56,600 nucleotides of DNA from Sphingobacteriales bacterium (GTDB lineage Bacteria; Bacteroidota; Bacteroidia; CAILMK01; JAAYUY01). The DNA lies in NCBI GenBank assembly GCA_012517435.1, contig JAAYUY010000163.1, forward strand, positions 1 to 56,600, read 5' to 3'. Both the position numbers and the translations under genes were made by a program. Below the pieces are notes generated by a model. It was not told the DNA's origin, did no database searches, and worked only from the letters and a program-made list of their open reading frames with translations. Below are positions 2,187 to 49,198 of this stretch, piece after piece. Within the stretch, counting starts at the first letter, position 1, and every line of letters starts with the position of its first letter.

Positions 2187-2220
2187 TTAAATTAATTTTA
2201 ATCAGAATAATTCTTTTAAT

Positions 2221-2228
2221 TAACTTTG
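2221..2228 (+). promoter_or_regulatory. Putative -7 element (TAACTTTG) of the fur-purA unit
   Basis: TAACTTTG matches the Bacteroidota -7 consensus TAnnTTTG exactly and lies 19 bp before the fur ATG, so a start site near 2235 would give a short leader. No clear TTTG -33 element is visible at the expected spacing, which lowers confidence. Confidence 0.5.
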
Positions 2229-2247
2229 AACCTTCAAAATTTAGTAA

Positions 2248-2694
2248 ATGAAAAAATCTAAAAAAGACATCTACAGCGAAGTAAGGGAGATATTTACAAA
2301 TTACCTTGCTGCTAAAAATTATCGTAAAACTCAGGGTCGATATGATATTTTGTATGAAATTTATTCATTTAACGAGCATTTTGAAGTTGAAACTCTTTAC
2401 ATTTCATTAAAAAACAAGAATTATCATATCAGCAGGGCAACCATCTACAATACCGTAGATTTATTGCTTGAATGTGGCCTGATAGTCAAACATAGCTTTG
2501 GAAAAAAAGCCGGCACCTATGAAAAAGCTTATGGCCATCATCAGCATGATCATTTAATAAATATTGAGAATCAGGATGTCATTGAGTTTCACGATGACCG
2601 TATTAACGAACTTGTTGAAGATATTGCCCGCCAGTATAATTTCTCGGTTTCGCACTATGCTTTCACTATTTATGGAAAGCCACAAGAAAAGTAG
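2248..2694 (+). CDS. Fur-family transcriptional regulator
   Basis: This 148-residue protein has the Fur fold: an N-terminal winged helix (about residues 20-85, including SRATIYNTVDLLLECGLI) and a C-terminal metal-binding and dimerisation region starting with GHHQHDH (about 93). It should bind DNA in response to a metal ion or oxidative signal. The paired C-terminal CxxC motifs of classical Fur/PerR/Zur are absent and only one cysteine is visible, so it lacks the usual structural zinc site. Which metal it senses cannot be assigned. It sits between relA and purA on the same strand and has its own good -7 element, so it is probably co-transcribed with purA. Confidence 0.88.
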   Translation: MKKSKKDIYSEVREIFTNYLAAKNYRKTQGRYDILYEIYSFNEHFEVETLYISLKNKNYHISRATIYNTVDLLLECGLIVKHSFGKKAGTYEKAYGHHQHDHLINIENQDVIEFHDDRINELVEDIARQYNFSVSHYAFTIYGKPQEK

Positions 2695-2731
2695 GTAATT
2701 TATAATACATTGAAAATCTTTTATTTATTTT

Positions 2732-3994
2732 ATGCCTGTTGATGTTTTGTTAGGTCTGCAATGGGGAGATGAGGGTAAAGGAAAAATCATTGATACATTA
2801 AGTCCCCGGTATGAAATTGTTGCCCGGTTTCAGGGAGGCCCTAATGCCGGACACACCTTATTAATAAATGGTAAAAAATTTATTTTTCATACGCTTCCTT
2901 CAGGAGTGATTCATACCCATACTAAAAATATTTTAGGTACAGGCATGGTTATCGATCCTGTTACGGTGAGAAAAGAAATAGAAATGGTTGAAAATGAGGG
3001 GATTAATGTTAAAAACAGCATTTTAATTTCTGAAAAGGCTCACTTAATACTTCCTTCTCATAAATACCTGGATGCATTTTTTGAAAAAAAGATGGGTGAA
3101 AATAAGATCGGTTCTACCCTGAAGGGAATAGGCCCGGCTTATCAGGACAAAATTTCAAGAGTAGGCTTACGGATGGGACATGTCAAATCCAATCATTTTC
3201 ATGAACTCTATCAAATTCTTAAACAACGACATTTTGCATTGCTTGACGATGCAGGTAAAGACTTGTCGGAGAGTGAAGAGGGAAAATGGTCAGAAGCCAT
3301 TGAATTTCTTAAAAATTATCCTATAGTCAATACGGAGAATTACTTAAATGAATCATTAAAAGACAATAGAAAAGTTCTGGCAGAGGGAGCACAAGGCACT
3401 TTGCTTGACATTGATTATGGCACCTATCCGTATGTAACTTCTTCCTCAACAATTGCGGCAGGAGCCTGCACCGGATTGGGGATTAGCCCAAAATACGTTA
3501 ATGAGGTTCTCGGTGTCTTTAAAGCATACACCACACGTGTGGGTGAGGGACCTTTTCCAACTGAACAGGTAAATGAAATTGGTGAATTTTTAACTGAAAA
3601 GGGATGTGAATACGGCTCTACTACCGGAAGAAAACGCAGATGTGGATGGCTTGACCTTGTTGCGCTTAAATACGCCATTATGATAAATGGTGTAACTTCC
3701 CTTATAATTACAAAATCCGATGTTCTTTCTTTCCTGGATGAAATAAAGGTTTGTTCGCAATATTCAGACGACAGCATGAAGCGTGTTGAATTTTCAGAGC
3801 TTTATTTCGGTGGAAATATTCATCCTGAATATCAAACGTTTAAAAGCTGGAAAACCGATATTTCACAGATAAAAGAATATGATGAGTTGCCTTCAGCATT
3901 TAAACATTATCTGAAATATATTGAAAATGAAACAAGGCTGAAAATCAGGTTGATTTCAACCGGGCCCGACAGAAATCAAATGATTCAGCGATAA
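2732..3994 (+). CDS. purA: Adenylosuccinate synthetase
   Basis: PurA catalyses the GTP-dependent condensation of IMP and aspartate to adenylosuccinate, the first committed step to AMP. The N-terminal phosphate loop WGDEGKGK (about residues 11-18) is present. So are the GGPNAGHT segment with the conserved histidine, GSTLKGIGPAYQDK, EGAQGTLLDIDYGTYPYVTSS and the GTP-binding STTGRKRRCGW region. The length of 420 residues is typical. It lies 37 bp after fur with no separate promoter visible, so the two probably share a transcript, which ends at the strong hairpin directly after the stop codon. Confidence 0.97.
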   Translation: MPVDVLLGLQWGDEGKGKIIDTLSPRYEIVARFQGGPNAGHTLLINGKKFIFHTLPSGVIHTHTKNILGTGMVIDPVTVRKEIEMVENEGINVKNSILISEKAHLILPSHKYLDAFFEKKMGENKIGSTLKGIGPAYQDKISRVGLRMGHVKSNHFHELYQILKQRHFALLDDAGKDLSESEEGKWSEAIEFLKNYPIVNTENYLNESLKDNRKVLAEGAQGTLLDIDYGTYPYVTSSSTIAAGACTGLGISPKYVNEVLGVFKAYTTRVGEGPFPTEQVNEIGEFLTEKGCEYGSTTGRKRRCGWLDLVALKYAIMINGVTSLIITKSDVLSFLDEIKVCSQYSDDSMKRVEFSELYFGGNIHPEYQTFKSWKTDISQIKEYDELPSAFKHYLKYIENETRLKIRLISTGPDRNQMIQR

Positions 3995-7411: not shown

Positions 7412-8728
7412 TTAGTAATTAGAATTTTTATCTTTAATGGAACGACCCATATAAGTCATGACACAACGAAAACCGATGTAGGCTTTGGCTGTATCCTGAT
7501 ATTCATAGGAGCGTGTTCCATTTTGAAGCCAGTATCCGACATCTTTGAAAGAACCTCCGCGAATGGCTTTCCGTTTGATGCTTGCCCGTGATTCTTCATC
7601 TCCGACATTTCTGAAATAGTACGGATTCATATCATGAATTACACTGTTAATTCCTTCATCATAGGCATTATCACACCATTCGGCCACATTTCCTGCCATG
7701 CAATACAAACCATAGTCATTCGGAAAATAACTGGTAACCCTGACAGGATAATACCCACCATCCTCTGAATAATTACCACGAAGAGGCTTAAAGTTAGCCA
7801 GAAAACAACCTTTGCTGTTTCTCAGATAAGGACCTCCCCATGGATATGGACTGAAATCTCTGCCGCCACGGGATGCATATTCCCATTCAGCTTCGGTAGG
7901 CAGCCTGAAATCGTTTACTTTTGGCATTCCAATCGATTTGTAATAATCATTGAGATATTTTGTCCTCCAGTGGCAGAATGCTCTGGCCTGAATCCATGAA
8001 ACACCAACGACAGGATATTCGTCATAAGCAGGATGAAAGAAATATAATTGCGTAAGCGGCTCATTGAAAGCATAAGTAAAGTCTCTTATCCAGCAAAGTG
8101 TATCTGGATAAATTCTTACTTTTTCATTGCGGATAAATTTTTCCCTTGAAACAGGGGTTCCTTTACGGTTAAGTTCGTAATATTCTCTTTTGGCTGCTTC
8201 ATTTAAGTCAAACCATTGATATTCATAAATATATTTTCTGACATCAAACTCATATAAATCACCTTCAAAAACTTCATTGCCCTGATAAAACATTTCTGCA
8301 AGGTTTTCCCTGATTTCCGGTAATTCATAATCAAGTTTGGTACGCCAGTTAATGTATTCATCACCATTGGCATTTTCCATTACCCATGCATCTCCAAGGG
8401 TTTTTCGGGCAATTGAGTCACGAACCCAGTAAACAAACTGACGGTATTCGTTGTTGGTAATTTCTGTATCATCCATAAAAAATGACTGGATGGTTACCTG
8501 CATAGGCCTTGAAGTAAGCGCATAGATAATGTCTTCATCACTTTGCCCCATGTGAAATGTTCCCGTAGGTATGTTGACAGTACCATAGGGCTGGGGGTGA
8601 TTCCAGATCATTCTTCCACTAACTCCAACAAGTTGACCCTTAGTATTCCTAAGTCCACAACTCTGAAAAAGGAAAGTCAGCGAAACGAACGCAAGTGTAA
8701 TTAGCCTGAAGTCCTTTAGATATCTCAT
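7412..8728 (-). CDS. gldK: Gliding motility / type IX secretion lipoprotein GldK (PorK)
   Basis: GldK is an outer-membrane lipoprotein with a formylglycine-generating-enzyme (FGE/SUMF1) fold that forms a periplasmic ring with GldN. The N-terminus is a lipoprotein signal with lipobox LFQSC (Cys near residue 24). The FGE-like domain covers most of the rest, with IPTGTFHMGQ, FRLPTEAEWEYASRGG, YCMAGNVAEWC and AIRGGSFKDVGYW. In T9SS the domain is structural rather than enzymatic. A matching promoter lies directly upstream, so gldKLMN appears to be transcribed separately from porP as well as possibly by read-through. Confidence 0.95.
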   Translation of the reverse strand: MRYLKDFRLITLAFVSLTFLFQSCGLRNTKGQLVGVSGRMIWNHPQPYGTVNIPTGTFHMGQSDEDIIYALTSRPMQVTIQSFFMDDTEITNNEYRQFVYWVRDSIARKTLGDAWVMENANGDEYINWRTKLDYELPEIRENLAEMFYQGNEVFEGDLYEFDVRKYIYEYQWFDLNEAAKREYYELNRKGTPVSREKFIRNEKVRIYPDTLCWIRDFTYAFNEPLTQLYFFHPAYDEYPVVGVSWIQARAFCHWRTKYLNDYYKSIGMPKVNDFRLPTEAEWEYASRGGRDFSPYPWGGPYLRNSKGCFLANFKPLRGNYSEDGGYYPVRVTSYFPNDYGLYCMAGNVAEWCDNAYDEGINSVIHDMNPYYFRNVGDEESRASIKRKAIRGGSFKDVGYWLQNGTRSYEYQDTAKAYIGFRCVMTYMGRSIKDKNSNY

Positions 8729-8751
8729 GATGTTGATAATTAATCAATCGG

Positions 8752-8784
8752 CAAATTTATACTTTTTTATTTTTATCCTGCAAA
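8752..8784 (-). promoter_or_regulatory. gldKLMN promoter (-33 TTTG, -7 TAAATTTG)
   Basis: On the minus strand TTTG (8784-8781) is followed after 21 bp by TAAATTTG (8759-8752), an exact match to the Bacteroidota TAnnTTTG -7 motif with an accepted -33 spacing. The predicted start site is near 8745, some 17 nt before the gldK ATG. Confidence 0.7.
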
Positions 8785-8856
8785 TTTTTTAACGCAATTA
8801 ATTTCAAGTTATTATATCCATAAATATTTTGTCAAAATTAAAGTTGTCATTTTAGC

Positions 8857-9864
8857 CTAATTATAGGGTTTTAAATACCTTGGGGACCAGATAATGTTGG
8901 GAATAACCACCTTTGTTTTGGTAACAATTTTGAAACAGTAATTGAATACAACTTCATGAGAACCAGTACTGTAGTTAAGAATCCTGGTAGTGGTCAGGTC
9001 GTAGGAATAGCCAAAAGTAAGCTGAGGGGTAAGTCGCATTCCCAGCAATAAAGAAATATCTGCTGCAGGTGAACCCTGTCTGTAATTCAGGCCGCCATAA
9101 AATTTGTTTTTGTAAGTAACATTACAGTTGACATCAAATTGTTGTTTTGCTTTATCGATTTTGTAAAGTATCGATGGTTGAATTTCAATATCGGGATTGG
9201 CAGGTAATAAAAGATTATATCCGGCCACAACATAGGATTGCCTGACCAGTTTATTGGTGGGTCCGCCATAATTAAATTCTCCTCCTAAAAGATGCTGTGA
9301 GGAAATACCAACATAAAACTTATTTGCGGTGAAAACATACATCCCCAGCCCCAAATCCGGTTTAATATCCGAAGCATTCACAGGAATGCCGGGGTCGTTG
9401 GGATTGTCAGGTGGTTTCCAGACACCGTCAAAGGCACTTTGAATTCCTCCAACATTGGCACCTACCTGAATCGTACCGAAAGAAAAGTATTTTTTGAGGG
9501 AAAGTGTAAAATTTGCAGTCGTTCTTGATTCAAAACCATGTTTATCATTGATAACATAAAAGCCGGCTCCTCCAAGAAAATTTGAGCCGGGTATGGGAGC
9601 ATGAATGCTGAAAGTTTGCGTTTGAGGGGCAATACCCTGATACTCATTGTCTCCACCAAACCCAAGCCATTGATTGTGATACAAAAAGGTCATACAGATA
9701 AATTCCGGATTTGAACCTGTAAATGCGGGATTATAAACAAGTTTGTTAAACATAAAGTTGGTGTACATAGGATCTTGTTGGGCATGAGCAATATTTGCAG
9801 AGAAGAAAAAATAGCCTGCCAGCAGACTGAAATAAAGGTGTAACTGATTAATTCTCATAGTCAT
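8857..9864 (-). CDS. porP: Type IX secretion system outer-membrane protein, PorP/SprF family
   Basis: This 335-residue protein has a signal peptide ending near NIAHAQ (about residue 29) and then the PorP/SprF signature QQDPMYTNFMFNKLVYNPAFTGS. A beta-barrel-like sequence with alternating hydrophobic strands follows to the C-terminus. PorP/SprF proteins sit in the outer membrane and are needed for surface localisation or attachment of T9SS cargo. Its position immediately upstream of gldK reproduces the porPKLMN order of Porphyromonas gingivalis, which supports the porP call over a cargo-specific sprF. A 128 bp gap with a promoter separates it from gldK. Confidence 0.9.
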   Translation of the reverse strand: MTMRINQLHLYFSLLAGYFFFSANIAHAQQDPMYTNFMFNKLVYNPAFTGSNPEFICMTFLYHNQWLGFGGDNEYQGIAPQTQTFSIHAPIPGSNFLGGAGFYVINDKHGFESRTTANFTLSLKKYFSFGTIQVGANVGGIQSAFDGVWKPPDNPNDPGIPVNASDIKPDLGLGMYVFTANKFYVGISSQHLLGGEFNYGGPTNKLVRQSYVVAGYNLLLPANPDIEIQPSILYKIDKAKQQFDVNCNVTYKNKFYGGLNYRQGSPAADISLLLGMRLTPQLTFGYSYDLTTTRILNYSTGSHEVVFNYCFKIVTKTKVVIPNIIWSPRYLKPYN

Positions 9865-9915
9865 TTATCTTAAAAATGTACATAACGACTGAAATAACTG
9901 AATTGAAAACGCCTG

Positions 9916-9943
9916 CAAGATAATAAAATTGTAATATATGCAA
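9916..9943 (-). promoter_or_regulatory. Possible porP promoter, imperfect
   Basis: The minus strand shows TATCTTG (9922-9916), one T short of the TAnnTTTG consensus, with a TTG 18 bp upstream (9943-9941). It lies about 50 bp before the porP start. This is the best candidate in the gap but is not a full match. Confidence 0.3.
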
Positions 9944-9964
9944 GCTTTTCCAAAAAAATCTTCA

Positions 9965-10708
9965 CTATTTGTTGACATTTTTAATATATTGCTCGATAGC
10001 CATTTTCATGGAAGGTGTTTGTGGAGTCGGAGCGGGAATATCCAGTCGCAGTCCTGCATCGACAACGGCCTTGCAGGTACTTTCACCAAAAGCGGCAATT
10101 CTGATGTCATTTTGAACAAATCCGGGAAAATTTTCACGCAAAGAGTTAATTCCGGCAGGGCTGAAAAATGCAATAATATCGTAACTATAGATATCAATAT
10201 CACTCAAATCTGCTGACACGGTATTGTAAAGAACACTGCTTGAATATCGAATTCCATTGGCATCCAGAAACTCAAATAACTCATTACTGGAAATATTGGA
10301 ACAGGGAATAAAATAATATTCGTGAGGATTTTTCAGTAAAAGCTCTTCAAGTGTGCGGTCTTTTGTTTTTGGGAAAAAAATTCTTCTTTTTCTGTAAGAA
10401 GTAAATTTCTGCAGATATAAGGCATAAGGTTCACTGAGACAGAAGAATTTCATTTCGTTCGGTATGTCAATCTTGGTCTCTTTACATATTCTGAAAAAGT
10501 TTTCAATGGCCGTTCTGCTGGTCATTATCACAGCGGAATGATCAAGAATTCTTACTCTTTCCTTTAAAAAATCCATTGATTGAACAGGCTCAACCTTTAT
10601 AAATTTTCTATAGGTAATTTTAACATTATATTTATTGGCTAAATCCTGAAAGGGGGATGTCTCATCCTTTGGCTCAGGTTGTGAAATTAAAAGATGCTTT
10701 ATTTTCAA
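9965..10708 (-). CDS. Uroporphyrinogen-III synthase-like protein (HemD family)
   Basis: The 247-residue protein has the two-lobed HemD fold pattern. The first lobe shows LLISQPEP and HSAVIMTSRTAIENFF, and the second shows YDIIAFFSPAGINSLRENFP and RIAAFGESTCKAVVDAGLRLDI followed by TPSMKMAIEQYI. True HemD cyclises hydroxymethylbilane to uroporphyrinogen III in tetrapyrrole synthesis. Sequence conservation in this family is weak and no other heme gene is nearby, so the enzymatic role is inferred. The start appears to be TTG at 10708, 11 bp after the DUF4271 gene. It is the last gene of the LOG-rnhA-radA-DUF4271 operon. Confidence 0.8.
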   Translation of the reverse strand: MKIKHLLISQPEPKDETSPFQDLANKYNVKITYRKFIKVEPVQSMDFLKERVRILDHSAVIMTSRTAIENFFRICKETKIDIPNEMKFFCLSEPYALYLQKFTSYRKRRIFFPKTKDRTLEELLLKNPHEYYFIPCSNISSNELFEFLDANGIRYSSSVLYNTVSADLSDIDIYSYDIIAFFSPAGINSLRENFPGFVQNDIRIAAFGESTCKAVVDAGLRLDIPAPTPQTPSMKMAIEQYIKNVNK

Positions 10709-10719
10709 TGCCTTAAATT

Positions 10720-30350: not shown

Positions 30351-31553
30351 TCAGGGTTTTAAAATCTTAGAATATGCTGCTGACTGGTCATTCGCTACCC
30401 TGACGATGTAAACACCTGAGGGAAATCCGGAAATGTCAATACTGATATAATCGCCAAAAGCTTCCGGATTCAGATAAAGAGTTTTTCCTGAAACACTGAT
30501 GATTTCAATATGATAAACATCTATTTCAGGCAGAAACAGGTTCAGATTCTTTTCAGTGGTTGTACATTTAAGGGTAAGGGGTTTAACCTCAGAAACAGAG
30601 CTTGTATAGGGACTGAGCTTAGCCAGACCGCTTCCCCAGGTAGCAACCCAGATATTGTCGTTTTTGTCTATTTTGAGGTCAAGAAGCTGATTGGTAGGCA
30701 AAGGAGAATTCGATTTATTGTAAACCGTCCAGTTTTTACGGTCAAACATAAAAACACCGCCATTGGTAAAATCGGGATTGCTGATCCAGATATTTCCCTT
30801 TGAATCCAATTGAATGGAATTGGCACTTGCCAGGTTGGATTTTGGATAAAAATTCCAGTTTGTACCAGTAAAATAACCCAGATTGCCGGGACAAACAAAC
30901 CAGAGGGTGTCGCCATTCCCCTCTTTCATGGCATAAACGGAATTGGAAGGTAGCGGAGAATTGCTTTTGTCATAAACCTTGCTTTGATTGGCCGACAACT
31001 GAATCATTCCGCTGTCTTTTGTACCGATCATTAAGTCATATCTGAACCCGGACAAACAAAGAAAAATAGTATTTTTTACAACTGAATTGGTATAATCATA
31101 TTTTGACCATGCCGAGCCATTGAATTTCAGAATGAAATAGTTGGTTTTGTCGGCAATCCAGACATTCTTGGTCTTGTCAACAAACAAAGGTTCCATCCAC
31201 GGAGAGCTGATCAGGGCATTGGTATAAATCTGAAAATTCCCGTTGTATTTGTATAATTCCATGTTGCTGGTCGTGAACCAGATATCACCGTCATTGTCAG
31301 CTGCAACGGCATTGACCCATGCATCATAAATATAGTTTTTGAAAGTATCACCGTCAAATTCAGTTAAGTGAGGGACATTTCCGCTGTTGTCGTAACCTGC
31401 CCACAAATGGCCGTTTTTATCAAAATCCATGGATTTTATCTTGTTCCATGGGATTTGTGAATTTGAAGGATTATAAATCTTCCACTGAGGAACCTGGTTA
31501 AACACCAGCAAAGGGATAAATATAAAAATCCCTGAAATAATATAATTTTTCAT
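30351..31553 (-). CDS. T9SS type-A cargo with two-component-regulator-like beta-propeller
   Basis: A 400-residue exported protein with a signal peptide (IISGIFIFIPLLVFNQ). It has repeated propeller blades of the type GHLWAGYDNSGN, GDIWFTTSNMELYKYN, GNIWISNPDF and DNIWVATWGSGLAKL. The C-terminal sorting domain ends GVYIVRVANDQSAAYSKILK. The blades resemble the ligand-sensing half of hybrid two-component sensors, but here they are a free secreted protein. The type-A sorting tail means export by T9SS and usually cleavage with attachment to A-LPS. It has its own promoter and overlaps no neighbour. Confidence 0.83.
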   Translation of the reverse strand: MKNYIISGIFIFIPLLVFNQVPQWKIYNPSNSQIPWNKIKSMDFDKNGHLWAGYDNSGNVPHLTEFDGDTFKNYIYDAWVNAVAADNDGDIWFTTSNMELYKYNGNFQIYTNALISSPWMEPLFVDKTKNVWIADKTNYFILKFNGSAWSKYDYTNSVVKNTIFLCLSGFRYDLMIGTKDSGMIQLSANQSKVYDKSNSPLPSNSVYAMKEGNGDTLWFVCPGNLGYFTGTNWNFYPKSNLASANSIQLDSKGNIWISNPDFTNGGVFMFDRKNWTVYNKSNSPLPTNQLLDLKIDKNDNIWVATWGSGLAKLSPYTSSVSEVKPLTLKCTTTEKNLNLFLPEIDVYHIEIISVSGKTLYLNPEAFGDYISIDISGFPSGVYIVRVANDQSAAYSKILKP

Positions 31554-37461: not shown

Positions 37462-37487
37462 AACCCTGCTTTTTGCAGGGTTTTTTA
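37462..37487 (+). terminator. Intrinsic terminator of the initiator tRNA
   Basis: AACCCTGC (37462-37469), a five-T loop and GCAGGGTT (37475-37482) form a perfect 8 bp stem followed by a T-run, only 4 bp past the CCA end. Confidence 0.9.
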
Positions 37488-37590: not shown

Positions 37591-38415
37591 ATGAAGGCTT
37601 TTTTTATCACTTTAATTTCATTTCTGGTCATTAATTCAGTGTTTGCATTAAATCCTGTAAGAGAATATCCGGTTACCCCGGCCGACTATGGCATGGATTA
37701 CAACAACATCAGAGTGAAGACTTCAGATAATATGATGCTGCAGGTATGGTTTTTCAAGGCAACCGACAAACTGTCGAGAAAAGTAATCATTTTAAGCGAT
37801 GACGGAGACGGGAATATGGCCGACCTTATTGAATATGCCAGTAATTTCCTGTCGCTGGGCTACAACGTAGTAACCTATGATTACCGTGGATACGGGAAAA
37901 GCGATGATTTCCCCATAAACAATAATTTTTTCATGTACAGCCAGTTTCAAAAAGATCTGGAAGGCGTGCTCGACTGGGTAAAACGCGATTATCCTTCTCT
38001 GAAAACCATTCATTTATTTGGTTTGGGAATTGGGGGAGGTTTATCAATAGGTATTGGTTGTAACAGGGCTGAAATCAGTCGTATTATTGCTGATTCACCT
38101 TATTCCACCTTTGAACTTACAGAAAAACGATATATGGATGTTTACGGGCAGAAGGTAATGATGCCGCTTGGGTATGATAAGACCTTCCTTGAACCCTATT
38201 ACGCAATGAGTGAAAAAGGTTCTGGCCTTCAGGGGATTTTGCTGATCTGCGGGGCAGATGATAAAATTTTTACCCCGACCGACATGAAAGAGCTTTACAA
38301 GCTGAAAAAAAGCATCACTTCCATTTACACGGTTGCCGGAGCCACCTCAAAAACCACCTATACGACCAGCAAACAGGCTTATTTTGCCGAAATTAAAAAA
38401 TTTCTTGGTCAATAA
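37591..38415 (+). CDS. Exported alpha/beta-hydrolase-fold protein lacking catalytic residues
   Basis: A 274-residue protein with a signal peptide (FFITLISFLVINSVFA). Its core resembles alpha/beta-hydrolases: VVTYDYRGYGKSDDFP, then the strand and helix of the nucleophile elbow, and LLICGADDKIFTP with the acidic residue. But the elbow reads G144-L-G146-I-G148, with glycine where serine should be, and the segment expected to hold the catalytic histidine (AGATSKTTYT, about 249-258) has none. It is therefore likely a pseudoenzyme with a binding role, in the periplasm. It lies 66 bp before the caspase gene on the same strand. Confidence 0.82.
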   Translation: MKAFFITLISFLVINSVFALNPVREYPVTPADYGMDYNNIRVKTSDNMMLQVWFFKATDKLSRKVIILSDDGDGNMADLIEYASNFLSLGYNVVTYDYRGYGKSDDFPINNNFFMYSQFQKDLEGVLDWVKRDYPSLKTIHLFGLGIGGGLSIGIGCNRAEISRIIADSPYSTFELTEKRYMDVYGQKVMMPLGYDKTFLEPYYAMSEKGSGLQGILLICGADDKIFTPTDMKELYKLKKSITSIYTVAGATSKTTYTTSKQAYFAEIKKFLGQ

Positions 38416-38481: not shown

Positions 38482-41400
38482 ATGAAAAACACAATTTGGT
38501 GTGTAGCTATTGTTATGCTACTTTTCAGTTCAGGTGTGCAGGCTCAGAAGCGTCCGATCGATAAATCACTGATAAAAGCCATTCAGGCTTCAGATTACAA
38601 GCAGGTTAAAAAACTTATCGACATTGGAGCCAATGTCAATGCTCAGGATGAAAATCAGGCCACAGCCCTCATGTGGGCAATTTATAAATCAGACCTTAAG
38701 ATGGTCAAACTGCTTGTAAAATATGGGGCAGATGTAAAAAAGAAAGGCTTTATTTATCTTGATGAAGAAAAAGAAAGCTATTATGGCGCTCCTCTTTCAA
38801 TAGCTGCAGGGACAGGAAAACTGGACATTGTACAGTATCTGGTAGAAAAACTGGGTGTTTTGCCCAAAGACAAGCAACTGGTAAAAGATAAGGGCGAAAC
38901 AGGATGGACTGCGCTTCATGAAGCCTGTGCTTCGGGGCATACCGAAATCGTTAAATATTTGCTCGAAAAAGGGGCTGATATCAATTCGCAGGTAAAAGAA
39001 AATTTTAAACCGCTTACTCCAACTCCTTTAATTTGTGCCATCCGCACCAAAGATTTAGAGCTCATTAAGTATTTGCTGGATCAAAAAGCTGACCCTGATC
39101 TTGCCGATGAATATGATATTACACCACTTGGCTATGCTGTAATCAACAACAATCTTTCACTTATTCGACTACTTTTAAGCTACAAGGCCAATATTAACTA
39201 TCCTCAGATTAACGGTGCCGGTATTCTGATGCTGGCTGCATACATGAATTTTACTGATATCTTCAGGTTCCTTGTCTGGAATGGAGCGGAAGTCAAATCA
39301 GGGAATGCACTTTATCTGGGTGATCAGAAAATATATGTCTATTCTCTGCCAGCCATGGCTGCTGCAAGGGGAAATATTGAATTGCTCAAATACCTCAGGG
39401 ATAGTTTTCATTACGACCTGACAACAGATTTGTTTACCCTTAACGATAGTGTCATTCATGTTTTATCACCCTTACATGCTGCAGTTTTATCCGACCAGAC
39501 TGAAACAGCTGAATTTCTGATTGAACAGGGGAGCCCTGTTGATCAGCTGGAATACGTCAATAAACTGACAGCTCTGATTTACGCAGTATTCAGAAACAAT
39601 TTTGAACTGACCAGATTCCTTGTTGAAAAAGGAGCCGATATTAACTTCAATAATTCGAAATCGGGTTATACCCCTTTAATTATTGCCACCCGTGATGGTT
39701 ATACTGACATAGCAAAATATCTACTCGAAAAGGGTGCCGACCCTACCTTTACCGACATTGACGGTTACGGGCCGTATTATTATGCATTGAAAAGCGATGA
39801 CGACAAGCTGGCTGATTTGTTTGACTGGAAAAAACTTTTTAACGAAAAAAAAGTCAGATATCCTTCCTCATTATTGTATCAGGCTTTGCTTACACAAAAG
39901 CCTGATACTGCTGAACTTATGCTGAAATATGGCTTTGACCCCAATCAACCCGATAAATACGGGAACAATGGTTTGGTCTATGCGGTCAGAAGCGGAAACC
40001 TGCAGGAAGTTAAGTTGCTTTTAAACAACAAAGCCATAATAAATTATTCAACCAGTGAAAATCCCCTCTGTAAAGCCATTGAAACAAATACAGAAATAGC
40101 CAGACTTCTGATTGACAAAGGTGTTGACATCAATGCAAAAACCATTGACGGAGATTATCCTGTTTTCCGTGCTATTGATTATCAGAATTATGAGATTCTG
40201 AATTTACTGATTAAGCATGGTGTTGATTTGACAAAACTGAACAAGGAAGGTCTCACCGTATTACAGGCAGCTATCCTGAAAAATGATTTACTGACCGTAA
40301 AGGCACTTCTGGCAGCCGGAGCACAGGTTAACCAGACAAATTCAAAGGGGGAAAATGCCTATCAGTTTGCAGAAGCACAAAAGGCTGATAAAAAAATGAT
40401 GGAATTGCTTTTCGTAGAAGAATTAAGTCTTATTGAACTCATTGATAACCAACTTGAATGGAGTATTATTCCTCTGATAAAAAAACATCCTGAACTGGCC
40501 AATGAAAAAGACAGCAATGGTTTTCCCTTGCTCCACCGTCTGGTTAAGGTTAATGCAAAAGATATCATTCAAAAAATTGCAGGGTACGGAATAAACCTCA
40601 ATATTACAGATTCCATGGGAAGAACAGCCCTTTATTATGCCATTCTGCTTGGGAATAAAGAAATGGCTTATTATCTTGGTGGTTTAAATATCGACATCAA
40701 TAAGCCATGTTCAAAGGGAGAAAATGCACTTGAACTGGCTATTTCGCATGGATACACAGATTTAGCTCAGTTTCTGACGACCAAAGGAGCTAAAGTTCGC
40801 AAAAATGTGTCAGTCAGGCCTGATCTATTTGTCCCTGTCGGGCACACTGCCGGTGTGGCTGCATTTGACATCTCAGCAGATGGGAAATATTTGATTTCTC
40901 ATGGCAGAGACAAAACCGTCAGGTTGTGGGAAATATCATCAGGAAAAGAAATCAAGGTTTTCAATGAGATATATCCGAATTTTGCCTTTGAGAAAACAAA
41001 CTTTCACAAAAATGTTATCAGGTTTTCTCCGGATGGTAACCGATTCCTGGTATTTAACAAAAAAAAGATAGAAGAATATGATGTTCAAAGCGGAGAAAAA
41101 CTCAGGGAATTTAATGAAGCAGGATATGCCGCTTATTCTCCGGATGGGAAATACATTCTGACCACTGGTTATAATGAGGATAAAAATAAACAGAAAGCCA
41201 TACTGTTTGATGCACAGTCAGGTGAAATACTTTATAAAAGTGAAAACTTTTCAGAAGGAGTTGCTGCTTTCAGTCCCTCCGGCAAATATTTTATTTATCA
41301 GGATCAAGGGAAAACGATACTCTGTAATACTTCAGATTTTTCAATAATTAAGGTTTTTGAAACCGGCACTTTGCGTTCCTTCAGTTTTTCCCCTGATGAA

Positions 41401-44400
41401 AAAAAACTGGTTTATTCAGATGACGGAAGAAATATTGAGCTGATTGATCTTGACAGTGGCAGGCATCTTATTGAAACCATTAAACATCCGGGTGCGGTTG
41501 TCTGCTTTTCCCCTGACGGGAAAATTATTGCCAGCGGAGGGCACGACCAACTGGTGATTTTATGGAATGCTGAAACCGGTGAAAAAATCAGGGAATTATT
41601 CGGGCACGATCATTATATCTCAGGATTAAAATTTTCTCCTGACGGGAAATATCTCTTTTCGTCCAGCCGCGACCAGACCATTATCCAATGGGATGTAACA
41701 ACCGGTAAAAAATTCAGAGTGTTTGGCAGCAATTCATGGAGACCGACCCATGTTGCTTTCAGCCCTGACAGCAAATACCTTGTTTGTACGGGCAATGATT
41801 ATTCGGTGAACATCTGGGACTTACACAAATCAACCTCCGTAAATCATCTGGTTGGACACAAGGGCGTACTTTTTGGATTTGCCTTTTCACCCGATTCCAC
41901 CAATGTATTGACCTTCGGAGAAGACCGTGTGCCAAGAATGTGGAATTTCTCAACAGGAAAAAGAACAGCCACTTTCAGAACACACGATGATGCCGTTTTA
42001 GGAGCCGGATTTTCCCCTGACGGAAAATATTGCTTTTCTTACAGCAATGACAATAAAGTAATATTATGGGAAGTCAATACCGGAAAAATGATCCTGAAAT
42101 TAACACAGAAATATCTTGTCAATCAGGCACATATGATTATTCCCAACCAGTATCCTTCAGGAATGTTTGGTTTTACTCCCGACTCAAAATACTTTATTAC
42201 AGGAGATACTGTGGTTACGATTGCTCCAACATTATTGTTCTGGGAAGTTTCTACAGGCAGGTTAATTAAAAAGATTACATTGACTCCTGACAAAGACAAA
42301 AATGTTAAAAGTCCTGCCATACGGTTCATCAATAACACACCTGATGGAAAATCAATCGTTTGCGGCTTTTCTTACACTTCAGGTAAAACTGATTATTCAG
42401 AAATTCATTTTTTTGATGCCGTTACATTTGAGTTTCAGAAACGTCTTGAATTTGAAGGTTCTCATCAAAGAGTTAGCTTTACCCCCGATGGGAAAAAAAT
42501 CATTGTCTTTGAAGAAACAGATAATAAAATCATTGTTCTTGATGCCGAAAACGGGAATATTCTTTATAAAATCAACAAATATGAAATTGATGACCGGAAT
42601 TCACCGGTTTCTCCTGACGGAAACTTCCTGCTGGCTTTCCATGAGAAAATCATTATGCTGGTCAACCTGAATAATCTTACCGATGTAAAGGTTTTCACAC
42701 CCTGTGACAAAATAATCTCTTCAGCTGGTTTTTCACCCGATGGGAAATATCTTGTTTACAGTGCCACAGATAACACCATTGGCATCATCGAAACAGAAAA
42801 CTTCAAGACAATTGCAAAACTTGTCCTGTTCGGGGAAAACGACTGGGTGGTCAGCAATGAAGACGGTTTATTCGATGCCTCATCTCAGGCCATGAAACTG
42901 TTATATTATATATCAGGGCTTGAAGTCATCGAATTGGATCAGATGAAAGAACGCTATTATGAGCCCAATCTCTTACCTAAATTACTGGGATTCAATAAAG
43001 AAAAAATCAGGGATGTAAAAGCGCTGGAAGAAGTAAACCTCTATCCGGAGGTGGATGTCAACATCAGCAACAGCAATCTGATGATTGATCTGACCAACCG
43101 TGGTGGCGGTATCGGAAAAGTGGTGGTTCTTGTCAACGGAAAAGAAGTGGCTTCTGACGCCAGAGGGCCGAAACCCGATCCCAAAGCCGACAAGCTTAAA
43201 ATCAATCTTGACCTGAAAAATCATCCATATTTACAAAGCGGAAAGGAAAATATCATTGAAGTCAAGGCATACAATGCCGAGGGCTATCTGGTCAGCAGGG
43301 GTTCGAGCATCAGCTATAATCCCGGAGCCGGAAAGATCAGCAAACCTCCGCATTTATATGTCATTGCCTGCGGTGTTTCAGATTATACAGGAGAACAGAT
43401 CGACCTGAAATATGCAGCCAAAGATGCAGAAGATGTAGGAAATGCCCTGAAAATTGGCGGAGAAAGGCTTTTTGGTACTGACAAAACCCATCTCTACCTG
43501 ATGACCACTAATGCCGGGGATGAAAAGATGCAACCGACAAAAGCCAATATTCTGAGGGTATTCGATGAAATTTCAAAAAATGCTACTTCAGATGATGTTT
43601 TTGTGCTGTACCTTTCCGGTCATGGTATCAACTGGGGAGGACAGGACGGTGATTTTTATTATCTGACAAAAGACGCATACACTGCTTCGCCAGAAGCTTA
43701 CGGAGACCCCAAAATCAGAACTGCCACCACCATCTCGAGTGCTGAACTGACCGATTTGTTCAAAAAAATCCCCGCTTTAAAACAAGTGATGATGATAGAC
43801 GCCTGTGCCTCCGGAAAAGCAGTTGAAAACCTGATGGCCAAGCGCGATATCTCCGCAAGTACTCTGCGTGCACTCGACAGGATGAAAGACCGCGTAGGAA
43901 TGTACATTATCACAGGTTGTGCAGCTGATGCAGTCAGCTATGAAGCCAGTAAATTCGGACAAGGTCTGCTGACCTATAGCCTGCTGGAAGGAATAAAAGG
44001 CCTTTCCCTCCGTGAAGACAGATTTATCGACATTGCCATGCTCTTTACACGTGCACAGGAACGGGTGCCGGAACTTGCCGCTGACATTGGCGGCATTCAG
44101 AAGCCCCAGATTTTCAGTCCTTATGGTTCTCAAAGCTTTGATATTGGCGAACTTACCGAGCAGGATAAAGAAAAAATCAGCCTTGCTCAGCCCAAACCTA
44201 TGTTTCTCATGTCTGTTTTTCTCGAAGAAGAAAGCATGGATGATATTCTCGGTCTCGAAAAGCTGGTTGATGACGAATTCAGGCTAATATCTTCAAAAGG
44301 AATATCACCAGTTATTTTTGTCCAGGCAAAAGAGTTTCCGGAAGCATACCGGATGCGCGGACAATATGCTGTCAATGGGGATCAGGTGGAGATTAAAATT

Positions 44401-44514
44401 AACCTGTTTAAAGGAAAAGAAAAAGCAGGAAGCTTTACCGTTTCAGGTAAAAAAGATAATCCTGAAAATATTGTCAAAACTATTGTCGAAAAAGCACTTG
44501 AAATTGCAAAATAA
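38482..44514 (+). CDS. Exported ankyrin-WD40-caspase (C14) giant protein with TolB/FlgO-like tail
   Basis: A 2010-residue protein with a clear signal peptide (WCVAIVMLLFSSGVQAQ, about residues 5-21), so it should act outside the cytoplasm. About 20 ankyrin-like repeats occupy residues 28-770. Repeats of WD40 type (FSPDGKYL and variants) occupy about 785-1450. A beta-rich linker follows. A caspase/C14 domain covers about 1620-1880, with both catalytic residues: His1714 in LSGHG and Cys1775 in DACASG. The end (about 1905-2010) resembles TolB-N/FlgO-type domains, with YAVNGDQVEIKINLF. It could be a sensor-protease, since ankyrin and WD40 arrays are usually protein-binding. It is flanked by two other exported-protein genes on the same strand. 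Confidence 0.88.
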   Translation: MKNTIWCVAIVMLLFSSGVQAQKRPIDKSLIKAIQASDYKQVKKLIDIGANVNAQDENQATALMWAIYKSDLKMVKLLVKYGADVKKKGFIYLDEEKESYYGAPLSIAAGTGKLDIVQYLVEKLGVLPKDKQLVKDKGETGWTALHEACASGHTEIVKYLLEKGADINSQVKENFKPLTPTPLICAIRTKDLELIKYLLDQKADPDLADEYDITPLGYAVINNNLSLIRLLLSYKANINYPQINGAGILMLAAYMNFTDIFRFLVWNGAEVKSGNALYLGDQKIYVYSLPAMAAARGNIELLKYLRDSFHYDLTTDLFTLNDSVIHVLSPLHAAVLSDQTETAEFLIEQGSPVDQLEYVNKLTALIYAVFRNNFELTRFLVEKGADINFNNSKSGYTPLIIATRDGYTDIAKYLLEKGADPTFTDIDGYGPYYYALKSDDDKLADLFDWKKLFNEKKVRYPSSLLYQALLTQKPDTAELMLKYGFDPNQPDKYGNNGLVYAVRSGNLQEVKLLLNNKAIINYSTSENPLCKAIETNTEIARLLIDKGVDINAKTIDGDYPVFRAIDYQNYEILNLLIKHGVDLTKLNKEGLTVLQAAILKNDLLTVKALLAAGAQVNQTNSKGENAYQFAEAQKADKKMMELLFVEELSLIELIDNQLEWSIIPLIKKHPELANEKDSNGFPLLHRLVKVNAKDIIQKIAGYGINLNITDSMGRTALYYAILLGNKEMAYYLGGLNIDINKPCSKGENALELAISHGYTDLAQFLTTKGAKVRKNVSVRPDLFVPVGHTAGVAAFDISADGKYLISHGRDKTVRLWEISSGKEIKVFNEIYPNFAFEKTNFHKNVIRFSPDGNRFLVFNKKKIEEYDVQSGEKLREFNEAGYAAYSPDGKYILTTGYNEDKNKQKAILFDAQSGEILYKSENFSEGVAAFSPSGKYFIYQDQGKTILCNTSDFSIIKVFETGTLRSFSFSPDEKKLVYSDDGRNIELIDLDSGRHLIETIKHPGAVVCFSPDGKIIASGGHDQLVILWNAETGEKIRELFGHDHYISGLKFSPDGKYLFSSSRDQTIIQWDVTTGKKFRVFGSNSWRPTHVAFSPDSKYLVCTGNDYSVNIWDLHKSTSVNHLVGHKGVLFGFAFSPDSTNVLTFGEDRVPRMWNFSTGKRTATFRTHDDAVLGAGFSPDGKYCFSYSNDNKVILWEVNTGKMILKLTQKYLVNQAHMIIPNQYPSGMFGFTPDSKYFITGDTVVTIAPTLLFWEVSTGRLIKKITLTPDKDKNVKSPAIRFINNTPDGKSIVCGFSYTSGKTDYSEIHFFDAVTFEFQKRLEFEGSHQRVSFTPDGKKIIVFEETDNKIIVLDAENGNILYKINKYEIDDRNSPVSPDGNFLLAFHEKIIMLVNLNNLTDVKVFTPCDKIISSAGFSPDGKYLVYSATDNTIGIIETENFKTIAKLVLFGENDWVVSNEDGLFDASSQAMKLLYYISGLEVIELDQMKERYYEPNLLPKLLGFNKEKIRDVKALEEVNLYPEVDVNISNSNLMIDLTNRGGGIGKVVVLVNGKEVASDARGPKPDPKADKLKINLDLKNHPYLQSGKENIIEVKAYNAEGYLVSRGSSISYNPGAGKISKPPHLYVIACGVSDYTGEQIDLKYAAKDAEDVGNALKIGGERLFGTDKTHLYLMTTNAGDEKMQPTKANILRVFDEISKNATSDDVFVLYLSGHGINWGGQDGDFYYLTKDAYTASPEAYGDPKIRTATTISSAELTDLFKKIPALKQVMMIDACASGKAVENLMAKRDISASTLRALDRMKDRVGMYIITGCAADAVSYEASKFGQGLLTYSLLEGIKGLSLREDRFIDIAMLFTRAQERVPELAADIGGIQKPQIFSPYGSQSFDIGELTEQDKEKISLAQPKPMFLMSVFLEEESMDDILGLEKLVDDEFRLISSKGISPVIFVQAKEFPEAYRMRGQYAVNGDQVEIKINLFKGKEKAGSFTVSGKKDNPENIVKTIVEKALEIAK

Positions 44515-44521
44515 TCTGAAA

Positions 44522-45106
44522 ATGAAAAAGATAACTATAAGCTCAGCATTGATTTTCATGGCCATGTTCAGTCATGCTCAGACTGATTTTTCATGGATTA
44601 AACCAGGCTTAAAAATACGGTATTACCTGCATGAATATTCCTCTAACTACGAATTTGTTGTGGAATTACTGGATAATGGCAAAGCAAAAAAATTCAACTG
44701 GTGGATGACATGGCCGGTCAACCGGAAAGGCACCTGCCTGACTACTGAATATGCCATGCAGAATGCCACCAAACAACAGAATTATTTCAGGGGAGGTTAT
44801 GAAGAGCAAAACGACCGTACGACCGGCTTTGTTTCATATCCCGTCTGGAAAGCGATGAAAGATAAGGGAAGCATTACCATTCAACCCGTTGATGATGAGG
44901 AAGTTTTAAAATATGTCTGCGATTATCCCTATACTATTGTCATTGATGGGAAAAGCATGATCGTCCCTACCTTTTATTGTGAAACCGATCTCGGCTCAAA
45001 ATACTGGATACTGGACAATCCTGAAAATCCGATTATTCTGAAAATGGTGCTTGATTTTAACATCGAAATCGGGGAAATATTAACGCCAGAATACTGGGAA
45101 AACTGA
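44522..45106 (+). CDS. Exported protein of unknown function, partner of the caspase gene
   Basis: A 194-residue protein with signal peptide MKKITISSALIFMAMFSHAQ, then a beta-rich domain with several tryptophans and cysteines; the stretch SKYWILDNPENPIILKM near the C-terminus looks like a beta-sheet edge. I do not recognise the family. It starts only 7 bp after the caspase stop, so the two are almost certainly co-translated. An in-frame upstream start at 44318 would lie inside the caspase gene and gives no signal peptide, so I use ATG 44522. Confidence 0.75.
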   Translation: MKKITISSALIFMAMFSHAQTDFSWIKPGLKIRYYLHEYSSNYEFVVELLDNGKAKKFNWWMTWPVNRKGTCLTTEYAMQNATKQQNYFRGGYEEQNDRTTGFVSYPVWKAMKDKGSITIQPVDDEEVLKYVCDYPYTIVIDGKSMIVPTFYCETDLGSKYWILDNPENPIILKMVLDFNIEIGEILTPEYWEN

Positions 45107-46453: not shown

Positions 46454-49198
46454 TCAGCGTTTAATAAAACTTAACGTATGTCGCTGAGTTTCTGATTCCA
46501 GAAAGACCAGATAATAACCGGGCTTTAATGATGCTGTCTCATATTCATAAAAGAAATTCTTTTCAGTGCCGGTATTCAGTTGTTTACTGCAGATACGCTT
46601 TCCGTTCAGGTCATAAACTGAAAAAAGATAATTTCCCTTTGCCTCCCTGATGGCAAGCGTAATCTTTTCATTGGCTAAAGAAGGGAAAATTTTCACATTT
46701 TCCTGCATGAAAAGCTTGTCTTCAGGAGTTCCGAGCAAATCTTCAGGGCTTGATATATGGGTGGTAAAAATGCCGTTTCCATGCGTGGCAACTACCACCA
46801 GGCCATCTTCACTTCTTGTTTTCACCATATCGACCACGACATTTCCGATCATGTTATGCCCGATGTTGACCCAGCGCGTAGCAATACCCATCAGGCTATC
46901 CGTTGCGTAGAGGCCGGTGCTTGCAGCGACAAAATACATTGTTTTTCCATTTTTCAACGGCATTATCGATGCCCAGCGCAGACTCGGGCCATTCCCGCTC
47001 CCATCATCCTTTTCTTCAAGGTTCCCGGCTACCTTTTCCCAGCTTGAACCACCGTCTTTCGAATAAAACAAACTGTAAACCTTATAGTTGGAAAAAACAA
47101 CCAGAACTTTGTTCCCGTCCCGTGGATCGACTGCAATGCAGCTGATATTTCCGGCATTGCTCAGGGAAGTAATCCTTTCCAGAACGGGATCTCCCTGATG
47201 AGCATTCTCCACCTTGTAAAGCAGGCTTTTACTGGTACCCACATACAAGCGGTTGGCCGGCTTTTGCCTGGTGATGGCAAGCGCAGAAATAGAACGGTTG
47301 GGATATTTTACGGTATCTGAAAACCTGACCCATCCTGTCGATATCGAGTCGTAATTATTGAGCCAGGGAAGGCTTGCAAGACTGTCGTTTCGCCAAAGCT
47401 TCAATCCCTCTGCCAGATAAAGCTTATTGTTTGAAGGATCGAGCAATAAGGGATTGATAAATAAATAATTTTTACCCCCGATGGGATCAATTCTGGTGAA
47501 GTCAATCACATTGCCTTTGTCGTCCAGTTTTAGTTTCCTGATTTTACCCAGTTGGGTTGACATGATGTAATATTCTCTTCCTGTTGCAATACCCGAAAAA
47601 GAACCATCACCATTGTAAGGAATCACCCAATCACTTTCCGGATTTGTGCTGTTTGAAAAAAGGTTGCCGTTATCCTGAAGCCCGGCAATAATGACATCAC
47701 TCACACCATCTTCCTCAATGCCAATGGTGTACATTTGAGTTGTCAGGTATCCATTGTTCAAAGAAACCCAGTTTACGGTATCCTTCAGGCAGTTAAAGGT
47801 TTTAAAAACACCTCCATCGTTTCCATTGAATAAAATCTTAGGATTTGACGGATTAAAAAACAATACATGCTGGTCGGGATGATGATTTTTATAAACTTCC
47901 CATTTAGGCCGTTTGGTATGAACAGCATATCCACCAATCTGCCGGATCAGACTATCTGAACGAAAAGCATCAGTTGAACGATAAATATTTGTTCCTGAAA
48001 TAAATACGACATTGCTGTCGCCAGGCAACACACTTACCACCAGATCATATCCCCCCTGTGCATTGAAATTATCAAAACTTTTACCGCCATCAGAAGGAAT
48101 ATGCGCTGAGAGATTCTCCCACTTGCCACCCGTACCACTTCCATCCCCGGAAAGATATCTGTATTTCCAAAGGCTGTTCCAGTCTTCTTCGTCCTGAGAA
48201 CGAATGGATTTTTTACCATATCCCGGAGTATGTGCGAGAAAATAAACTACATTCTCATTATTGGGATCAATGCCTATCACTATGCGGTTGTATTCGGCAG
48301 GGAAAGTATCGGCAGGCAGAATATTGGTAAAGTTTATACCGTCAGGAGAGCGCCATATCCCAGCCTGATTGCCGTCTTTGCTCATCGTAGCATACACCAC
48401 CCCTGACGAGGTAACAGCTACATCGGTAAAATAAGAACCATAGTCGCCACCAAGGAGTTTTGTCCATGTTTGTCCTCCGTCAGTGCTTCTGAAAAGCCTT
48501 CTCAGGGTGGCAGCATAAACCACGTCCTGACTGTCATTTGAAATATCGGTTGCAATATTCCAGACCAGGTCCCAGGGGTCAAAATCGGTCAGATTGGGTG
48601 AATTCGTTGAAGCAAGTTGAGTCCATGTAATTCCGTTGTCAGTACTTTTATAAATGCCATTGCCATAATAATAAGCTCCCGAAGCATAGGCTGAATTGCC
48701 ATAAGCTTCCCCGGTACCATAATACCAGATATTTGTTTTTCCTTTCCTTTTGTCCTGTACCAAACAACTGACATTGTGCAACTGATCGGGTATGGTTACT
48801 TTTTGCCAGCTTTTACCTCCGTCAGTTGAGCGCCACATTCCTGCAGAAACTCCTCCCGCCAGCAAGATATTGGTATCTGCAACATCCATGGCAAAAGCTC
48901 TGGTACGTCCGCCAATGTTGAAAGGCCCGCGTTGTATCCATTTGGCTGCACGGTAACCTAAAACCTGCTCATCATTCGGCAAGGCAGAGGCATATTCCAG
49001 TTCAAGCGCAGCAATATTAACAGGTAATTTTCCCGTAACCGGATCAGCAAGACGGTTCAGCTCCCACTCCTGACGGCTTTTCAGATTAAAAGATAATCCA
49101 TCATCCGCTGGCAAAGACAGGCTTTTCTTATGATTGCTGTTACTGAAAACAAATAGCAACAACGGAAAGAAAATTAGTATTAGCTTGTATTTAATCAT
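46454..49198 (-). CDS. T9SS type-A cargo with VPS10/sortilin-like BNR repeats
   Basis: A 914-residue exported protein with a signal peptide (KLILIFFPLLLFVFSNS). It consists of BNR/sortilin-type propeller blades with STDGGKSWQKV (about 125), STDNGITWTQL, STDGGQTWTKL and SKDGGSSWEKV. The C-terminal sorting domain has NVKIFPSLANEKITLAI and ends in SFIKR. These WxxN/DGG blades are found in sialidases and glycan hydrolases, but no catalytic residues are clear. It is probably released or displayed at the cell surface by T9SS. It has a good -7 element upstream. Confidence 0.87.
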   Translation of the reverse strand: MIKYKLILIFFPLLLFVFSNSNHKKSLSLPADDGLSFNLKSRQEWELNRLADPVTGKLPVNIAALELEYASALPNDEQVLGYRAAKWIQRGPFNIGGRTRAFAMDVADTNILLAGGVSAGMWRSTDGGKSWQKVTIPDQLHNVSCLVQDKRKGKTNIWYYGTGEAYGNSAYASGAYYYGNGIYKSTDNGITWTQLASTNSPNLTDFDPWDLVWNIATDISNDSQDVVYAATLRRLFRSTDGGQTWTKLLGGDYGSYFTDVAVTSSGVVYATMSKDGNQAGIWRSPDGINFTNILPADTFPAEYNRIVIGIDPNNENVVYFLAHTPGYGKKSIRSQDEEDWNSLWKYRYLSGDGSGTGGKWENLSAHIPSDGGKSFDNFNAQGGYDLVVSVLPGDSNVVFISGTNIYRSTDAFRSDSLIRQIGGYAVHTKRPKWEVYKNHHPDQHVLFFNPSNPKILFNGNDGGVFKTFNCLKDTVNWVSLNNGYLTTQMYTIGIEEDGVSDVIIAGLQDNGNLFSNSTNPESDWVIPYNGDGSFSGIATGREYYIMSTQLGKIRKLKLDDKGNVIDFTRIDPIGGKNYLFINPLLLDPSNNKLYLAEGLKLWRNDSLASLPWLNNYDSISTGWVRFSDTVKYPNRSISALAITRQKPANRLYVGTSKSLLYKVENAHQGDPVLERITSLSNAGNISCIAVDPRDGNKVLVVFSNYKVYSLFYSKDGGSSWEKVAGNLEEKDDGSGNGPSLRWASIMPLKNGKTMYFVAASTGLYATDSLMGIATRWVNIGHNMIGNVVVDMVKTRSEDGLVVVATHGNGIFTTHISSPEDLLGTPEDKLFMQENVKIFPSLANEKITLAIREAKGNYLFSVYDLNGKRICSKQLNTGTEKNFFYEYETASLKPGYYLVFLESETQRHTLSFIKR

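Follow-up and report, generated by a model that had tools for sequence, protein, structure and literature searches.

Prokaryotic WD40-caspases were already known from a 2012 survey, in which probable signal-peptide helices were also noted at the N termini of 46 prokaryotic metacaspases that have no further domains (PMC3501461). The closest relatives of the protein described here are exported WD40-caspases that are annotated as 'caspase family protein', carry no family name and are typically 1100–1300 aa long. In genome searches and a named scan this family proved to be mostly from Bacteroidota, among them the cultivable Lutibacter agarilyticus (L058), other records being labelled Chlorobiota, Kapaibacterium, Ignavibacteria, Acidobacteria, Planctomycetota and others, and plasmid records yielded only distant caspases (27% identity at the best place). 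S1-pocket residues have been described for MALT1 paracaspase and the metacaspase TbMCA2, in both of which two Asp positions accommodate basic P1 residues (PMC4357240, PMC6426788). Literature searches found no biochemical or experimental work on close relatives of the present protein or on exported Bacteroidota caspases, and no paper on an ankyrin-WD40-caspase protein.

The window, i.e., the whole stretch of DNA analysed, is one entire 56.6-kb contig of a draft assembly of 3.19 Mb in 252 contigs. The gene of interest and the segments of its product are as follows.

38482–44514, plus strand: ankyrin-WD40-caspase fusion gene, a single uninterrupted ORF from ATG to stop, 2010 aa
38482..38544, plus strand: signal peptide, residues 1–21 (MKNTIWCVAIVMLLFSSGVQA, then QK), by hydrophobicity and equivalent '...AQ' leaders in relatives
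38554..40806, plus strand: ankyrin array, residues 25–775, 17 clear repeats and about 20 in all (Pfam Ank_2, E 7.2e-97; shuffle test)
40807..42831, plus strand: WD40 region, residues 776–1450, two tandem beta-propellers (Pfam WD40, E 4.2e-45)
42832..43341, plus strand: all-beta Ig-like linker with a conserved helical lead-in, residues 1451–1620 (model, conservation)
43342..44151, plus strand: caspase (peptidase C14) domain with p20 and p10-like parts, residues 1621–1890 (Pfam, metacaspase profile, fold)
44152..44511, plus strand: C-terminal alpha-beta-beta-beta-alpha domain, residues 1891–2010 (confident AlphaFold2 model)

In agreement with the original prediction, the open ORF, Pfam matches and motifs confirmed a 2010-residue ankyrin, WD40 and caspase chain with His1714 and Cys1775, and Pfam profiles and AlphaFold2 models upheld the order of its parts: signal peptide, ankyrin array, WD40 region, Ig-like linker, caspase domain and C-terminal domain. 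Profile searches of each segment recovered ankyrin, WD40 and Peptidase_C14, while the segment predicted as FlgO/TolB-N had no Pfam match. About 70% of the chain consists of recognition repeats. The protein has the layout of the exported WD40-caspase group, i.e., signal peptide, WD40, linker, caspase and C-terminal domain in that order.

Evidence for the protease was consistent across methods. Residues 1600–2010 matched Pfam Peptidase_C14 with an E-value of 1.3e-16 (score 61.5 bits, cut-off 21.4), and the caspase domain matched a metacaspase profile at E 2.9e-9. An AlphaFold2 model of residues 1450–2010, made with 68 sequences, gave a confident caspase fold around His1714 and Cys1775 (pLDDT 90.7, pTM 0.90), as had been anticipated, and Foldseek matched this model with a probability of 1.00 to metacaspases, a Geobacter protein, MALT1 and caspases. 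The residues expected at the active site and in the S1 pocket were located as follows.

43621..43623, plus strand: catalytic His1714, in SGHG (1712–1715), invariant in 78/78 proteins
43804..43806, plus strand: catalytic Cys1775, in DACAS (1773–1777), invariant in 78/78, partly by selection
43423..43425, plus strand: Asp1648, predicted S1-pocket acid (TbMCA2 Asp95/MALT1 Asp365 position), invariant in 78/78 and aligned with the metacaspase ND/KD position
43798..43800, plus strand: Asp1773, predicted S1-pocket acid (TbMCA2 Asp211/MALT1 Asp462 position), invariant in 78/78, partly by selection
43942..43944, plus strand: Glu1821, possible third S1 acid (putative MALT1 Glu500 position), invariant in 78/78

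The invariance of Cys1775 and Asp1773 was in part selected for, since one of the two patterns used in the named scan contained the DAC motif. Asp1705 and Gln1827 were likewise unchanged in all 78 proteins. Comparison of a p10 profile with solved structures showed no equivalence of Glu1821 with MALT1 Glu500, the sole match being a chance kinase. Because the two invariant Asp residues match TbMCA2 Asp95 and Asp211, the fusion protein is predicted from its sequence to cleave after Arg or Lys; cleavage after Asp, which the original prediction had left as an option, is disfavoured by an acidic S1 pocket that is invariant among 78 proteins. The metacaspases TbMCA2, yeast Yca1 and Arabidopsis metacaspase-4 resemble the fusion protein in fold, dyad and the two pocket Asp residues, but are eukaryotic and lack ankyrin and WD40 arrays. 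MALT1 resembles it in having an acidic P1 pocket and an Ig-like domain adjoining the caspase fold (PMC4357240), although this domain (Ig3) follows the caspase in MALT1 and precedes it in the fusion protein.

Between the ankyrins and the protease, 15 FSPDG-type WD40 motifs were counted, and the best Foldseek matches of the modelled WD40 region (AlphaFold2 pLDDT 80.9) were double propellers. Residues 1451–1620 matched no Pfam family; they were modelled as confident beta structure, and the relatives shared an invariant GGxG as well as other positions. In a second AlphaFold2 model the placement of the propellers with respect to the caspase was unreliable, and parts of the caspase region had pLDDT values below 60; the model therefore gives no structural support to gating of the protease by the arrays.

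The C-terminal domain was conserved across 52 relatives, with few invariant residues. Its labelling as TolB-N/FlgO-like was the weak point of the original prediction. At the level of sequence, Pfam gave no match for the fusion protein and, for the C termini of the 52 relatives, a single FlgO match (E 0.14), and hhalign to TolB-N and one FlgO sequence, a comparison with single sequences only, gave nothing. In contrast, weak support came from the fold, namely the alpha-beta-beta-beta-alpha topology and a Foldseek match to TolB (4jml) over 128 columns at E 9e-4, for which the aligned region was not reported. A TolB-N/FlgO-like domain is thus possible, as judged from the model. At another locus (L129 in G069, positions 2181–3329, minus strand), an ORF appeared to encode a FlgO/CsgG-like domain and, behind it, a caspase-like segment containing YFSGHG and DACFSG; it adjoined a larger FlgO-domain ORF.

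Residues 1–22 formed the most hydrophobic stretch of the fusion protein, and the signal peptide is probably cleaved after residue 21. By a simple hydropathy rule that required a hydrophobic N-terminal segment, a signal-peptide-like N terminus was present in 54 of the 56 full-length relatives, i.e., ORFs of more than 1000 aa with an upstream stop. The view that caspase-like proteins of bacteria mostly stay in the cytoplasm, an exported one being unusual, therefore fails for the WD40-caspase family. What remains unusual, in a protein that had been singled out for combining export, both arrays and a full dyad, is the ankyrin block, which was seen in 0/77 relatives, whereas export is common.

With respect to the destination of the protein, no Por_Secre_tail match, indicative of a type IX C-terminal sorting domain, was found in the fusion gene, while elsewhere the genome had 112 such matches, most of them above the cut-off. 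Two other genes of the window carried such tails:

30363–30524 and 46475–46690, minus strand: type IX secretion tails of two other genes (Por_Secre_tail matches)

Because the fusion gene is without a type IX tail in a genome with 112 matches, a periplasmic location is favoured.

In the ankyrin array, 17 units scored higher than the 95% maximum obtained by shuffling, there was space for another 3–4 units of degenerate sequence, and the block was inserted exactly between the signal peptide and the start of the conserved WD40 domain. Searches with phmmer found ankyrins in none of 77 relative loci, about 15 of which were 5'-cut or missing the N-terminal part, and no other open frame of more than 1350 aa was found in the class and phylum samples searched. 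Exported WD40-caspases otherwise shared with the fusion protein a signal-like N terminus, propellers, the Ig-like linker, the catalytic and pocket residues and mostly the same C-terminal domain, with a caspase part up to 59% identical, but were shorter and without the ankyrin block. A parallel was seen in a Bacteroidota MAG (L073, JAUVKA010000327.1), in which the same core was combined with an extra repeat array in the corresponding slot, the array consisting of leucine-rich repeats (Pfam LRR_14, E 4e-55) instead of ankyrins:

306–4895 of L073: single chain of signal peptide, some 13 leucine-rich repeats, WD40 and caspase, truncated by the end of the contig

In another relative, L096, a different segment that matched no Pfam family occupied the slot behind the signal peptide. 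The new element is the ankyrin array in this slot; the exported WD40-caspase core is common in the phylum.

Since the same genome encodes three other C14 proteins as well as further ankyrin proteins with open frames of 444–562 aa, several of which have a signal-like N terminus, the fusion gene is best read as two stock exported modules joined. That it arose instead by misassembly of an exported ankyrin gene with a WD40-caspase gene would fit the draft state of the assembly, with its 252 contigs, and the failure to find this architecture in a second genome. However, the frame is single and open, the two sides of the seam are similar in codon usage and no run of N occurs; moreover, the seam lies between the ankyrins and the conserved WD40 start and retains no second signal peptide, which makes an artefact very improbable. 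In this genome, genes resembling a two-component regulator lay next to that of a second exported WD40-caspase of 1033 aa (L131, positions 7618–10719; C239), and an apparent trypsin-like protease ORF adjoined that of an exported 528-aa caspase-like protein (L150; C207).

The immediate neighbours of the fusion gene were also predicted to be exported.

37591..38415, plus strand: upstream exported alpha/beta hydrolase (Pfam Hydrolase_4, E 8.7e-10), 66 bp before the fusion gene
44522..45106, plus strand: downstream small exported protein of 194 aa, no Pfam match

A terminator-like site was noted ahead of the hydrolase gene (37462–37482) and none on the plus strand in the gap between hydrolase and fusion gene; the two genes are possibly co-transcribed, as judged from sequence. 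Sites with the Bacteroidota -33/-7 promoter pattern were absent near the fusion gene and showed no excess over chance. Neither the hydrolase nor the 194-aa protein was found near any of the relatives, and gene context therefore provides no link to a pathway. In other loci, a TPR protein was encoded near the WD40-caspase gene (15/78), in some together with CHASE2 and DUF928-like proteins. Such TPR and sometimes CHASE2/DUF928-like genes beside a WD40-caspase were noted in L084, L072, L097, L082 and others, mostly Saprospiraceae, and may form a conserved cassette; a WD40-CHASE2-DUF928 cluster has been described in a cyanobacterium (PMC5587647). By analogy, these neighbours, all from loci other than that of the fusion gene, hint at a sensing role for the WD40-caspase family.

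Taken together, the results are best explained, with a probability of roughly 0.5, by a Sec-exported and most likely periplasmic orthocaspase whose arrays bind partners and thereby target or switch the protease. Thus, the fusion protein would be exported by Sec, most likely to the periplasm, where the ankyrin solenoid and the double WD40 propeller would bind partner proteins; binding would bring the protease to its substrates and/or switch it on, and the C14-type His-Cys protease would then cut after Arg or Lys. Recruitment of partners or control of the protease by the arrays is suggested by the roles of ankyrin and WD40 repeats elsewhere. Sensing of ligands or partner proteins followed by cleavage, as put forward in the original prediction, is plausible. 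The large share of recognition repeats in the chain, together with the scaffolding that is typical of WD40 proteins (PMC10907252), would also suit a protein that mainly assembles envelope complexes, proteolysis being self-processing or incidental. That reading is rather unlikely given that 78 divergent proteins all retain the His, the Cys and the S1 acids, which argues for selection for catalysis.

Other alternatives concern where and for what purpose the protease acts. A protease that needs no type IX tail for its export and, displayed at the surface or secreted, cuts external proteins would agree with the signal-like N terminus and with a resemblance of the ankyrin arrays to interaction modules of secreted proteins. 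The NCBIfam matches behind this resemblance, however, were all far below the cut-off and reflect the generic repeat only, and absence of Por_Secre_tail in a genome rich in such tails also makes a surface location improbable. Still more improbable is a role in defence or cell death, in which the caspase would kill its own cell on sensing phage or damage; such a role has been proposed for bacterial caspase systems of the cytoplasm. In its favour one can cite a PADLOC 'caspase' match, which was weak (E 3e-9), and the 28 metacaspases of Haliscomenobacter, a Bacteroidota (PMC3501461), but the N terminus is signal-like, an NTPase switch or adaptor domain was not detected in the chain, the two immediate neighbours had no PADLOC match, no partner genes were conserved among relatives and the surrounding genes of the window look like housekeeping genes (Suf, Msr, Mfd).

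The fusion protein is a new architecture variant within the exported caspase family. The position behind the signal peptide holds ankyrins in this protein and leucine-rich repeats in L073, in support of the tentative and, at present, doubtful idea that Bacteroidota may have a class of exported receptor-proteases in which an exchangeable slot (ankyrins, leucine-rich repeats or nothing) precedes a constant WD40-linker-caspase core, and which would act as envelope sensors that signal by proteolysis. These findings indicate that Bacteroidota routinely export caspase-type proteases whose catalytic machinery is complete, and that the exported WD40-caspase core has one fixed position at which recognition arrays can be added. 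The fusion protein thus offers a simple system in which to ask how a bacterial caspase located outside the cytoplasm might be controlled by recognition repeats.
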